A stretch of 32,467 bases of DNA. It comes from an uncultured Enterocloster sp. (lineage in GTDB: Bacteria; Bacillota; Clostridia; Lachnospirales; Lachnospiraceae). Shown piece after piece: positions 8,405-25,265 of this stretch. The stretch is taken from assembly GCA_944384065.1 (NCBI GenBank), contig CALWRY010000017.1:1-32467 (forward strand), in the 5' to 3' direction. The position numbers and the translations under genes were made by a program. The stretch's first letter is position 1, and each line of letters begins with the position of its first letter. The notes beneath the pieces are model-generated. The model was not told the origin of the DNA and did not search any database. It saw only the letters and a program-made list of their open reading frames with translations.

Positions 8405-8420
8405 TCCGACGTGACAGTCC

Positions 8421-8473
8421 GGAGGGCGGGCGGACAGAGACGGAACCCGGCTCTGCTTATACGCCCGCCTTTT
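8421..8473 (+). terminator. Terminator-like structure between rpsD and rpoA
   Basis: GGCGGGCG (8425-8432) pairs with CGCCCGCC (8462-8469), extendable by A-T and G-U pairs through 8421 and 8473; CAGAG (8435-8439) pairs with CTCTG (8451-8455) inside it. TTTT follows the stem directly. Likely a partial terminator or attenuator limiting rpoA relative to upstream genes. Confidence 0.55.
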
Positions 8474-8504
8474 GGACAGGCATACGTTTCCCTCGAGATA
8501 TAAT
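8472..8504 (+). promoter_or_regulatory. Possible promoter upstream of rpoA
   Basis: A perfect TATAAT at 8499-8504, 26 bases before the rpoA start. The best -35-like match, TTGGAC (8472-8477), is 21 bases away, longer than optimal, so activity is uncertain. Confidence 0.4.
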
Positions 8505-21339: not shown

Positions 21340-23910
21340 ATGAACTTAATTGAAAAAGTGTTTGGGACTCACAGCGAGAGAGAGCTGAAGATGATTCGGC
21401 CGATTGTGGAAAAGATTGAGAGCCTGCGGCCTGAGATGCAGGCCAAGTCCGACGAGGAGCTGCGGGACCAGACCAGGATTTTCAAGGAGAGGCTGGCGGG
21501 TGGGGAGACCCTGGATGACATTCTGCCGGAGGCATTTGCCACTGTGCGGGAAGCGGCCAAGCGGACTCTCAATATGGAGCATTTCCCTGTGCAGCTTATC
21601 GGCGGCATTGTGCTTCACCAGGGCCGTATCGCAGAGATGCGCACCGGTGAAGGAAAAACCCTGGTGTCCACCTGCCCGGCCTACTTAAATGCGCTGCGGG
21701 GCAAGGGCGTGCAGATTGTTACGGTGAACGACTATCTGGCCAAGCGTGACGCGGAGTGGATGGGCCAGGTACACCGCTTTTTGGGACTTACGGTGGGCGT
21801 GGTGCTCAACGAGATGAACAGCGAGGAGCGGAAAGCAGCCTATGCCTGCGATATCACCTACGTGACCAACAACGAGCTGGGATTTGACTATCTGCGTGAC
21901 AATATGGCCATCTATAAGGAGCAGCTGGTGCTCCGGGAGCTGGACTACTGCATCATCGACGAGGTGGACTCCGTGCTGATTGACGAGGCGCGTACCCCTC
22001 TGATTATTTCCGGACAGAGCGGCAAGTCCACCAAGCTCTACGAGGTCTGCGATGTACTGGCCCGCCAGCTGGAGCGGGGCACGGTTTCCAAGGAATTTTC
22101 CAAGATTGACGCCATCATGGGTGAGGAGATCGAGGAGACCGGCGACTTCGTTGTGGATGAGAAGGACAAGGTGGTAAACCTTACCGAGCAGGGCGTGAAG
22201 AAGGTGGAGGAATTCTTCCACATTGAAAACCTGGCGGATCCCCAGAACCTGGAGATCCAGCACAACATCATCCTGGCCCTGCGGGCCAATAACCTGATGT
22301 TTAGGGATAAGGACTATGTGGTTAAGGACGGAGAGGTCCTGATCGTAGATGAGTTCACCGGCCGTATTATGCCGGGCCGCCGGTACTCGGACGGCCTGCA
22401 CCAGGCCATCGAGGCCAAGGAGCACGTGCAGGTGCGCCGGGAGAGCCGGACCCTGGCCACCATCACCTTCCAGAACTTCTTCAACAAGTTCAATAAGAAG
22501 GCGGGCATGACCGGTACGGCTCTGACCGAGGAGAAGGAGTTCAGGAACATCTACGGCATGGACGTAATCGCCATCCCCACCAACCGGCCCATGATCCGAA
22601 AGGACTGGGACGACGCGGTGTATAAGACCAAGAAAGAGAAGTTCAAGGCGGTTGTGGACGAGGTGGAGGCCGCTCATGAGAAGGGCCAGCCTGTGCTGGT
22701 GGGCACCATTGCCATTGAGACCTCTGAGCTCTTAAGCAAGATGTTAAACCGCCGGGGCATTCCCCACAAGGTGCTGAACGCCAAGTTCCACGAGCTGGAG
22801 GCAGAGATCGTGGCGGACGCCGGAATCCACGGATCCGTGACCATCGCCACCAATATGGCGGGCCGCGGTACGGATATCAAGCTGGATGACGAGTCCAAGG
22901 CCCTTGGAGGCCTCAAGATTATCGGCACGGAGCGCCATGAGTCCCGGCGTATTGACAATCAGCTGCGGGGCCGTTCCGGCCGTCAGGGAGATCCGGGCGA
23001 ATCCCGCTTCTACCTGTCCTTGGAGGATGACCTGCTGCGGCTTTTCGGATCCGAGCGCCTGATGCATATGTTTGAGGCCATGGGCGTGCCTGAGGGCGAG
23101 CAGATTGAGCACAAGATGCTCTCCAACGCCATTGAGAAGGCCCAGATGAAGATAGAGGGCAACAACTTCGGCATCCGTGAGCAGCTCTTAAAGTTTGACG
23201 AGGTGAACAATGAGCAGCGCGAGGTTATCTACGCGGAGCGCCGCAAGGTTCTGGACGGGGACAACATGCGGGAGCTGGTGCTCAAGATGATCACGGACAT
23301 TGTGGAGAACGCAGTGGACATGTCCATCTCCGACGATCAGCCGGCGGAGAAGTGGGATCTGTCCGAGCTCAACAGCCTGCTTCTGCCCATTATCCCCTTA
23401 AGCCCCATCCGGCTGACGGAGGAGCAGAAGCACATGAAGAAGAATGAGCTCAAGCATCTCTTAAAGGAGCAGGCCATCAAGCTCTACGAGACCAAGGAGG
23501 CGGAGTTCCCCGAGGCGGAGCAGATCCGCGAGATCGAGCGCGTGGTTCTTCTGAAAGTCATTGACAATAAGTGGATGGCCCATCTGGACGACATGGACGC
23601 CCTGAGGGAGAGCATCGGGCTTCAGGCCTACGGCCAGAGGGATCCGGTTGTGGAGTACAAGATGCAGGGCTACGACATGTATGAGGCCATGATGGCCTCC
23701 ATCCAGGAGGAGACAGTGCGCATCCTCTTCCACATCCGCGTGGAGCAGAAGGTGGAGCGGGAGCCCGCTGCCAAGGTGACGGGAACCAACAGGGACAGCT
23801 CCTCCCCCAGCGCCCCCAAGAAGCGGGTGGAGCAGAAGATTTACCCCAACGACCCCTGCCCCTGCGGATCCGGAAAGAAGTATAAGCAGTGCCACGGGCG
23901 GCTGAAGTAG
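21340..23910 (+). CDS. secA: Preprotein translocase ATPase SecA
   Basis: The motor that drives unfolded preproteins through SecYEG. The 856-residue protein has Walker A MRTGEGKT (100-107), the [19 protein letters not shown] helicase block (about 209-227), [12 protein letters not shown] in the second nucleotide-binding fold and [20 protein letters not shown]. The C-terminus [17 protein letters not shown] is the zinc-binding SEC-C tail that contacts SecB or ribosomes. ATG 21340 has TTAGGAGAG upstream and is preceded by its own promoter. Downstream, prfB would be 56 bases away were it not for an inserted 153-bp MITE. Confidence 0.98.
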
Positions 23911-23939
23911 TAAGACGCCGTCCTGGTCTGCCGCAATCA

Positions 23940-23947
23940 ATTAAATA
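23940..23947. repeat. Target-site duplication, left copy
   Basis: ATTAAATA, directly abutting the GTAA end of the MITE. Confidence 0.85.
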
Positions 23948-24100
23948 GTAACTATTCAGGACGGCATCCTCTTGCCCGGCCAAAGGCCGGACAAGAGGCA
24001 TCGGAGGTTCCTCCGATGTGAAAACAGGGGCAAAAGCATGCTTATAAGCGAGCTTAACGCCTGTTTTTGCCCCTGCTTTCCCGCCGTCCTGAACAGTTAC
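23948..24100. mobile_element. MITE with IS66-type ends, inserted between secA and prfB
   Basis: The 153-bp element has 18-bp terminal inverted repeats, 23948-23965 (GTAACTATTCAGGACGGC) and 24083-24100, matching at 17 of 18. It is flanked by an exact 8-bp duplication ATTAAATA (23940-23947 and 24101-24108). GTAA tips plus 8-bp duplications are hallmarks of the IS66 family. It encodes no protein. Inside are three hairpins: 23968-23998 (CCTCTTG/CAAGAGG around CCGGCC/GGCCGG), 23999-24018 (CATCGGAGG/CCTCCGATG) and 24025-24075 (CAGGGGCAAAA/TTTTGCCCCTG). Mobilisation by an IS66 transposase elsewhere is inferred. Confidence 0.9.
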
Positions 24101-24108
24101 ATTAAATA
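24101..24108. repeat. Target-site duplication, right copy
   Basis: ATTAAATA, directly abutting the TTAC end of the MITE and 19 bases before the prfB start codon. Confidence 0.85.
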
Positions 24109-24127
24109 AATGAAAGAAGGTGAAGCT

Positions 24128-25265
24128 GTGGTTGAGTTCGATAATTTTAAACATACGCTCTCGACGTATGACAAACCATTAGTGGAAGTGAGGGATTCAC
24201 TTTGACCTGGATAACAAGGTCAGAAGAATCGCAGAATTAGACAAATCGATGGAGGAGCCGGGCTTCTGGGATGACCCGGACAAATCCACCAGGCTGGTCC
24301 GGGAGGCCAAGCATTTGAAGGATGAGGTGGACACCTATCACCAGCTGGAGCAGGCCTATGAGGATATCCAGGTGATGATCCAGATGGGGATGGAGGAGGA
24401 CGATGCCTCCCTGATCCCGGAGATCGAGCAGATGCTGGACGAATTTTCCCAGACACTGGAAAATATGCGCATGAAGCTCCTGCTTTCCGGGGAGTACGAC
24501 GCCTACGACGCCATCCTGCGGCTGAATGCAGGGGCCGGCGGAACAGAGTCCTGCGACTGGTGCAGCATGCTTTACCGCATGTACTGCCGGTGGGCGGAGA
24601 AGCACGGCTTTAAGGTGGAAGTGCTGGATTTCCTGGACGGTGAGGAGGCGGGCATCAAGTCTGTGACCATCCAGGTGAGCGGGGAGAATGCCTACGGATA
24701 TCTGCGCTCCGAGCACGGGGTGCACCGCCTGGTGCGTATTTCTCCCTTTAATGCGGCCGGGAAGCGGCAGACCTCCTTTGTGTCCTGCGACGTGATGCCG
24801 GACATCAAGGAGGACATTGACATAGAGATCAATCCGGACGATATCCGGGTGGATACCTACCGGTCCAGCGGCGCAGGCGGCCAGCACATCAACAAGACCT
24901 CATCGGCTATCCGCATCACCCATTATCCCACGGGAATTGTGGTGACCTGCCAGAACGAGCGGTCCCAGTTCCAGAACAAGGATAAGGCCATGCAGATGCT
25001 GAAGGCCAAGCTCTATATGTTAAAGCAGGAGGAGCAGGCCGCCAAGGCGGCGGGCATCCGCGGGGATGTGAAGGACAACGGCTGGGGAAGCCAGATCCGA
25101 TCCTATGTGCTTCAGCCCTACACCATGGTGAAGGATCTGCGCACCGGACAGGAGAGCGGCAACGTGGACGCAGTGCTGGACGGGGCGCTGGATGACTTTA
25201 TCAGCGCGTATCTGCGCTGGATGAGCCTGGGCTGCCCGGACCGTCATGCCAGGTCGGAGGAGTAA
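24128..25265 (+). CDS. prfB: Peptide chain release factor 2, programmed +1 frameshift
   Basis: RF2 releases peptides at UGA and UAA. The gene is read as 24128-24202 joined to 24204-25265. The first 25 codons (MVEFDNFKHTLSTYDKPLVE onward) end at CTT followed by UGA (24203-24205) in CTTTGAC, the classic RF2 autoregulatory slip site; AGGG (24191-24194) upstream can act as the stimulatory Shine-Dalgarno. The 378-residue product has SPF at 205-207 and GGQ at 250-252, the same numbers as E. coli RF2, which supports the GTG start at 24128 behind AGAAGGTG. A MITE lies immediately upstream; a strong terminator follows. Confidence 0.96.

Follow-up and report, generated by a model that had tools for sequence, protein, structure and literature searches.

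The 153-bp non-coding element that separates secA from prfB in the DNA studied here is, as a whole, very probably best explained as a miniature inverted-repeat transposable element (MITE) of the IS66 type that inserted between the two genes and carries a three-hairpin module kept by constraint, probably aided by template switching. The DNA is a contig of 32,467 nucleotides from an uncultured Enterocloster sp. (CALWRY010000017.1, assembly GCA_944384065.1), and this whole stretch is called the window. The element occupies positions 23948-24100 on the plus strand and scored 177.4 bits with a covariance model built from 63 rows, one of which is the window copy itself. Its 18-bp terminal inverted repeats (TIRs) pair at 17 of 18 positions; the left one (23948-23965, plus strand) starts with GTAACTATTCAG, the IS66 terminal motif, and the right one (24083-24100) starts, on the minus strand, with GTAACTGTTCAG. 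The target-site duplication (TSD) ATTAAATA lies on both sides, at 23940-23947 and 24101-24108, and an exact 8/8 flank match was found in just 0.06% of mispaired control flanks. Given these controls and the near-identical copies found genome-wide, the element with its duplications is far beyond chance. Inside it are hairpin 1 (23968-23998), with a CTTCTTG/CAAGAAG base in the family and a covarying inner stem, hairpin 2 (23999-24018; CATCGGA paired with TCCGATG) and hairpin 3 (24020-24080), whose long stem shows the strongest covariation of the module and is topped by an apical motif, CTTAYAAGCRAGCTTRAC (24041-24058), that is nearly fixed across genera; all of these are given for the plus strand. 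A first-pass annotation of the window, made from the letters alone, had proposed the same boundaries, inverted ends and duplications as well as three consecutive hairpins, and all of these were confirmed exactly.

The interior is a three-hairpin module in which pairing is kept by double changes. We aligned 63 distinct copies (alignment A3), which remained from 84 full-length copies after 18 that exceeded 156 bp were dropped, followed by L212, L216 and L030, each the sister-genome counterpart of an insertion already included. Changes on both sides were seen in 31 of 62 pairs, including 25 of the 45 hairpin pairs, and the cells with a double change numbered 201, compared with 51.7±9.7 after shuffling and 7-22 when the partners were slid. 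At column pair 83-133, for example, C-G, T-A, A-T and G-C all occurred, and no cell was unpaired. When events were counted on a tree, the three hairpins showed 43 changes from one Watson-Crick pair to another, against a null mean of 3.6 and a maximum of 8 in 60 shuffles; the TIRs showed 6 double and 92 other events, which differs from the hairpins (Fisher p = 3e-6). In ten copies from ten other genera the sequence of stem 3 was quite different and its pairing was largely kept. The tip CTTAYAAGCRAGCTTRAY was exact in 10 of 12 copies (these ten, the window copy and one copy from genome G001) and deviated by three bases in L295 and by two in L303. Compensation was also seen in place, in orthologous insertions of two Enterocloster genomes (G006 and G014) with flanks 91-93% identical: a C-G pair became G-C in stem 3 (L252/L305), and a T-A pair became G-C in hairpin 1, with further changes in stem 3 (L320/L325).

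The module also persisted in old copies. With worsening duplication, non-Watson-Crick internal pairs made up 3.6, 3.7 and 2.3%, showing no decay, and those of the outer ends 8.9, 12.6 and 15.4%, a tendency only (rho 0.23, p = 0.07). In 19 end-eroded copies, 14.95 of the 17 pairs of stem 3 were formed, compared with 8.87 for mispaired arms, and diversity in end-eroded copies was highest at the ends (0.57-0.71), followed by stem 3 (0.51), hairpin 2 (0.27) and the tip (0.17). An asymmetric TTA/AY loop beneath the tip was kept in 91 of 101 copies when one mismatch in TTA was allowed. The erosion classes comprised 104 copies for stem pairing and 101 for diversity and the loop count, and the preceding scan comprised 95 loci.

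The element belongs to a multicopy family. We compared 17 Enterocloster genomes, including the window's own draft (G000; 89.5% complete, 3.37 Mb). A nucleotide search of G000 gave 105 candidates, 40 of which were scored, and all 40 matched; by the same kind of search, copies were present in 13 of the 17 genomes, G000 included. A covariance model built from the 63 copies (R1), used at E<=1e-5 for the genus genomes, gave 81 matches in G000, of which 5 were antisense reads of copies already counted, leaving 76 places; in G015, G006 and G014 it gave 42, 29 and 24 matches, antisense reads still included. The first-pass annotation had suggested that the ends be searched genome-wide and in relatives, and it turned out that not all relatives have the 153 bp at secA-prfB and that the element also occurs elsewhere. 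Short, non-coding, bounded by TIRs, multicopy and flanked by TSDs, the element has the properties of a MITE. In a family-wide sample of Lachnospiraceae, R1 gave matches at E<=0.001 in 27 of 299 genomes, which represent 26 of 298 genera when the window's own genus is counted, and 13 genomes of other genera reached E<=1e-15; in a class-wide sample it matched 2 of 291, both Lachnospiraceae. Both searches used the stricter filters of Infernal, so that these counts are lower bounds. Plasmid and phage collections gave no matches at E<=1e-5, and a single IMG/VR match was rejected as a chance TIR match, devoid of the module, inside a phage reading frame.

Some observations on the copies themselves are added here. 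Several in G000 stand at contig ends (C173:1, C10:2, C18:2 and C141:22), suggesting that the draft assembly probably fragments at the repeat, which makes the copy number a lower bound. Longer variants of 168-194 bp made up 18 of the 84 full-length copies (e.g. L244:9131-9304 and L271:5018-5209), and some of them have an additional TACCCCAAAGGGCACCTAG-like stretch ahead of hairpin 1. Adjacent copies of the module were seen at L280:1581-2016 and L320:1421-1655. At window positions 8405-8487 there are about 80 unrelated bases where the orthologous spacer of another genus genome (G007, L284) holds a MITE.

An exact 8-bp duplication was found in 19 of the 84 full-length copies with flanks (eight genomes), against the 0.06% of mispaired flanks given above; when one mismatch was allowed, the count rose to 39 of 84, compared with about 0.5% of the mispaired controls. 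Counted by length, exact matches numbered 19 at 8 bp, 1 at 7 bp and 0 at 9 bp; in G000 alone, 6 of 36 copies had an exact duplication and 16 of 36 had no more than one mismatch. The 84 copies are not all independent, as some are shared insertions (window/L212, L204/L216, L030/L219 and L252/L264) and two, L285 and L286, have flanks in common within one genome. Insertion polymorphism was found between the close relatives G000 and G015 at two empty sites. Locus L218 of G015 carries a copy where the site in G000 (L201) is clean, its junction being shorter by 8 bases (92.6% identity over 571 bp), and L193 of G000 carries a copy where L222 of G015 is likewise empty (94.6%, 464 bp). These empty sites in close relatives show that the element family is mobile. 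At a third site, G015 (L228, around 855) is without the copy that G000 has at L248:9341-9495, and both duplications stand side by side (96%, 800 bp), a single case that may be the footprint of a precise end-to-end excision.

The sequence data support the assignment of the element as a non-autonomous member of the IS66 family, because its ends match the IS66 terminal motif GTAACT[A/G]TTCAG over 12 bases, after which they diverge; the ends start with GTAA, as IS66 termini do, and the duplication is 8 bp long. The first-pass annotation had called the element an IS66-type MITE, and this is upheld by the 12-nt motif, the 8-bp duplications, the other copies and the empty sites. Among 80 related IS66 loci, 72 had at least one exact GTAACT[A/G][T/C]TCAG, and 18 combined paired ends with an exact duplication of 8 bp; in 17 of the 18, both ends start with the motif. 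The 18 are partly a selected set, in that the script accepted only right ends of the form GTA or NTAA and gave weight to the duplication, and 6 of them come from one genome, Eubacterium plexicaudatum ASF492; their hosts are Lachnospiraceae, other Clostridia, a Selenomonas, an Opitutaceae, a Dehalococcoidia and a cyanobacterium. The IS66 ends nearest to those of the MITE were in L066 and L108. The latter, from another genus, is a complete single-gene IS66 element of 1,824 bp with the ends GTAACTGTTCAGAACC and GTATCTGTTCAGAACC, flanks without a matching target duplication, and a protein that matches DDE_Tnp_IS66, DUF6444 and NF033517. In G016, an element end reading GTAACTATTCAGAACCACCC directly follows the stop codon at the end of an IS66 gene. 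Loci of the genus with PF03050 gave no match to the MITE ends except for 12 nt in L066. Two apparent IS66 ends were rejected: the one in L062 falls within the tnpC reading frame, and the one in L063 occupies the corresponding relative position. As a separate observation, G004 had 31 IS66 transposase matches, but the nucleotide search, with its cutoff of E<=1e-5, gave no MITE copy there.

At the insertion site, secA (21340-23910, plus strand, with a C-terminal CxCGSGKK motif) is followed by prfB, the gene of release factor 2 (RF2; 24128-25265, plus strand), with its +1 frameshift site CTTTGA at 24200-24205. The GTG start of prfB at 24128 was inferred from a ribosome-binding site that is conserved in relatives, as judged by eye, and the element lies upstream of this site. 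Removal of 161 bases (the element and one duplication) leaves a gap of 56 bases between the secA stop at 23910 and this start, just as the first-pass annotation had calculated. It had missed that these 56 bases themselves hold what appears, in alignments by eye, to be the fossil of an older MITE insertion (about 23911-23934, plus strand). In all 17 genus genomes secA is directly upstream of prfB, but the intact element is present in only 2 of 17, G000 and G015, where it is identical. By eye, the spacer of G006 contains a deleted relative of 64 bp whose AAAAAATA duplication is exact, that of G014 a 21-bp end-to-end remnant and that of G011 a short remnant; no recognizable end was seen in the spacers of the remaining 12. 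The G014 remnant aligns with window positions 23918-23930, suggesting that the spacer had already received an insertion earlier and that the window element, beside the fossil, is probably the younger of two. None of the relatives had an exact empty secA-prfB site with a single ATTAAATA, for which the first-pass annotation had proposed a search. An unrelated GC-rich, terminator-like hairpin was seen by eye in 6 of the 17 spacers (L099, L102, L103, L105, L106 and L107). Thus, the earlier claim of an insertion into an ancestral operon stands as far as insertion into a secA-prfB pair is concerned, but the word operon is uncertain, since secA and prfB may not be cotranscribed throughout the genus.

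The gene context of the copies, taken from a simple longest-open-reading-frame caller, showed no preferred orientation. Of the 84 copies, 41 lie between co-directional open reading frames (ORFs), 19 in the same and 22 in the opposite orientation; of the others, 12 fall within an ORF and 9 at the edge of one. An overlapping second set gave 28 same and 32 opposite, with 7 same and 4 opposite among its end-eroded copies. Overall, G-T and A-C intermediates amounted to 21 and 30 events (p = 0.26), showing no excess of G-T. Neither the orientation nor the G-T/A-C counts supported selection on a plus-strand RNA.

Several observations weigh against our account. As to the IS66 origin, G000 itself, a draft at 89.5% completeness, gave no IS66 transposase match. 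The full MITE end was absent from the 80 IS66 loci (116 motif sites), where the best continuation matched 4 of 6 bases, and the three-hairpin module was absent from the 50 of these loci that were scanned. As to the maintenance of the module, decayed copies exist (L231, and also L093, L094 and L096), and other pair changes in the hairpins numbered 98 events on the tree, compared with the 43 double changes. A gene conversion event with another copy as donor could alter the two arms together, and apparent complete turnover of a stem in place was rejected for L253/L355 and L233/L322, whose flanks do not align cleanly, leaving only two clean pairs. In hairpin 3 alone, A-C intermediates exceeded G-T ones, 21 to 9 (p = 0.04), a hint of minus-strand RNA, in which these would be G-U pairs, and one that an orientation-neutral reading did not predict. 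Finally, since the models used to find copies reward structure and the conserved motif, unstructured old copies would have been missed.

We weighed several other explanations. That the element belongs to another mobile family, such as a REP/RAYT-type one, and resembles IS66 by chance would agree with an interior rich in hairpins and with the failure to find a parental IS66 element, but the 12-nt terminal identity with IS66 elements and the specificity for an 8-bp TSD make this highly improbable. As to what maintains the module, selection, template-switch correction or both may be responsible. Template switching between hairpin arms yields paired changes without selection, and passages of two papers describe the process in E. 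coli and yeast (PMC7202029, PMC8604942). A wholly neutral process of this kind, a quasipalindrome correction during replication in which the paired changes need no function, is a possibility that we take seriously but would not back. It accords with the double changes of lower stem 3, which are clustered and accompanied by hardly any one-sided cells, with G-T intermediates that do not exceed A-C ones, and with distant TIR arms that show little covariation (double changes in 6 of 98 events). It cannot, though, hold the sequence of the 18-nt tip or of hairpin 2 in copies whose ends are nearly saturated, and it should erase the asymmetric loop that 91 of 101 copies keep; the ascertainment caveat applies to both arguments, as it does to the conclusion that the fixed tip favors selection. 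Template switching probably contributes to the paired changes all the same.

It is doubtful that the module is a cis-acting RNA, i.e. an attenuator, an insulator or an RNase III site that at this locus would tune RF2. The 41 copies between co-directional ORFs, the conservation of the module in end-eroded copies, the combination of a conserved tip and a covarying stem that is typical of structured RNA, and the excess of A-C in hairpin 3, which would reflect minus-strand G-U tolerance, all point in this direction. On the other side, orientation is unbiased in both sets, the plus-strand G-U excess is absent, a scan of 23700-24300 for intrinsic terminators (GC hairpin and T run) found 0 sites, and 15 of 17 relatives are without the intact secA-prfB element. 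Less likely still is selection of the hairpins for transposition itself, as single-stranded DNA or a cruciform recognized along with the ends. This would be orientation-neutral and would fit the matches to the module in 26 of the 298 genera sampled across the family, but pairing showed no decay with TSD age, and selection for transposition alone is insufficient because end-eroded copies keep both the pairing and the tip. We favor, if tentatively, an orientation-independent constraint on the hairpins over template switching alone.

Our proposal is that, in a recent common ancestor of G000 and G015, a non-autonomous IS66 MITE entered the secA-prfB spacer next to the older relic and duplicated ATTAAATA. 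It would have been moved in trans by a putative transposase of the single-gene IS66 type, whose elements have the GTAACT[A/G]TTCAG ends and 8-bp duplications; the ends, duplications and empty sites of the MITE were themselves observed. Pairing of the interior is kept by double changes after insertion and even after the ends have eroded, most likely through constraint on a hairpin that works either way round, as protein-bound DNA or as RNA from either strand, and probably with help from template switching, in which one arm is copied onto the other. The secA-prfB copy is probably transcribed, and with the ribosome-binding site and start of prfB intact it may have at most a mild effect. The interior, with its three hairpins, nearly fixed CTTAYAAGCRAGCTTRAC tip and hypervariable covarying stem, could be an undescribed structured nucleic-acid family of the Lachnospiraceae that was captured by IS66 ends, dispersed by transposition and, once the ends had died, retained by the cell for a function independent of orientation, although we hold this with less than even confidence.

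Bacterial MITEs are commonly regarded as decaying debris. Here, one MITE family, matched in 26 of 298 sampled genera of a major gut family, keeps its hairpin interior by paired changes while the sequence of the stem turns over, also where the ends of a copy are gone. This would represent either a new mobile family of structured RNA or DNA or an unusually clear natural record of template switching, and it is a warning that covariation alone may mislead in palindromic repeats. Rfam gave no match at gathering score, the weak microRNA matches being far below their gathering scores. Among the open-licence PubMed Central (PMC) papers listed for IS66 MITEs, compensatory mutations in MITEs, Lachnospiraceae MITEs or Enterocloster insertion sequences, no description was found, and the literal end and motif sequences gave only apparent chance primer matches, judged by titles, in open-licence PMC texts. 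What is new here is the three-hairpin interior module with covarying stems.

Among known systems, single-gene IS66 elements such as L108 (tnpC only), which we take to be ISBst12-like, share the terminal motif GTAACT[A/G]TTCAG and the 8-bp target duplication with the MITE. They are mostly 1.5-2.0 kb long, with a few of about 2.5 kb, compared with 153 bp (a single gene was seen in L108 and inferred from element length elsewhere), and they differ from the MITE past position 12 and in having no three-hairpin module in the 50 loci scanned. The bcr1 repeat of the Bacillus cereus group is, as a matter of general background, likewise structured with compensatory changes; the word "compensatory" does not occur in the bcr1 paper used here. 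According to passages of that paper, bcr1 is like a MITE in its mobile-element features, belonging to a class (BCR) of 100-400 bp repeats and averaging 39 copies, but it is confined to the B. cereus group and differs in its TTTAT motif, its proposed site-specific mechanism and its lack of IS66 ends (PMC6542083). MITEPsy1 of Pseudomonas syringae is also short and non-coding, with TIRs, a target duplication and demonstrated movement, but it is 100 nt long, is listed as "IS5?", has a 4-nt duplication and shows no covarying module in the passages concerned (PMC3189936). REP sequences and GTAG-tagged palindromes are, in the part of the source used here, palindromic repeats outside genes as well, but they measure 20-40 bp, in contrast to the TSD-bounded unit of 153 bp described here (PMC3733652).
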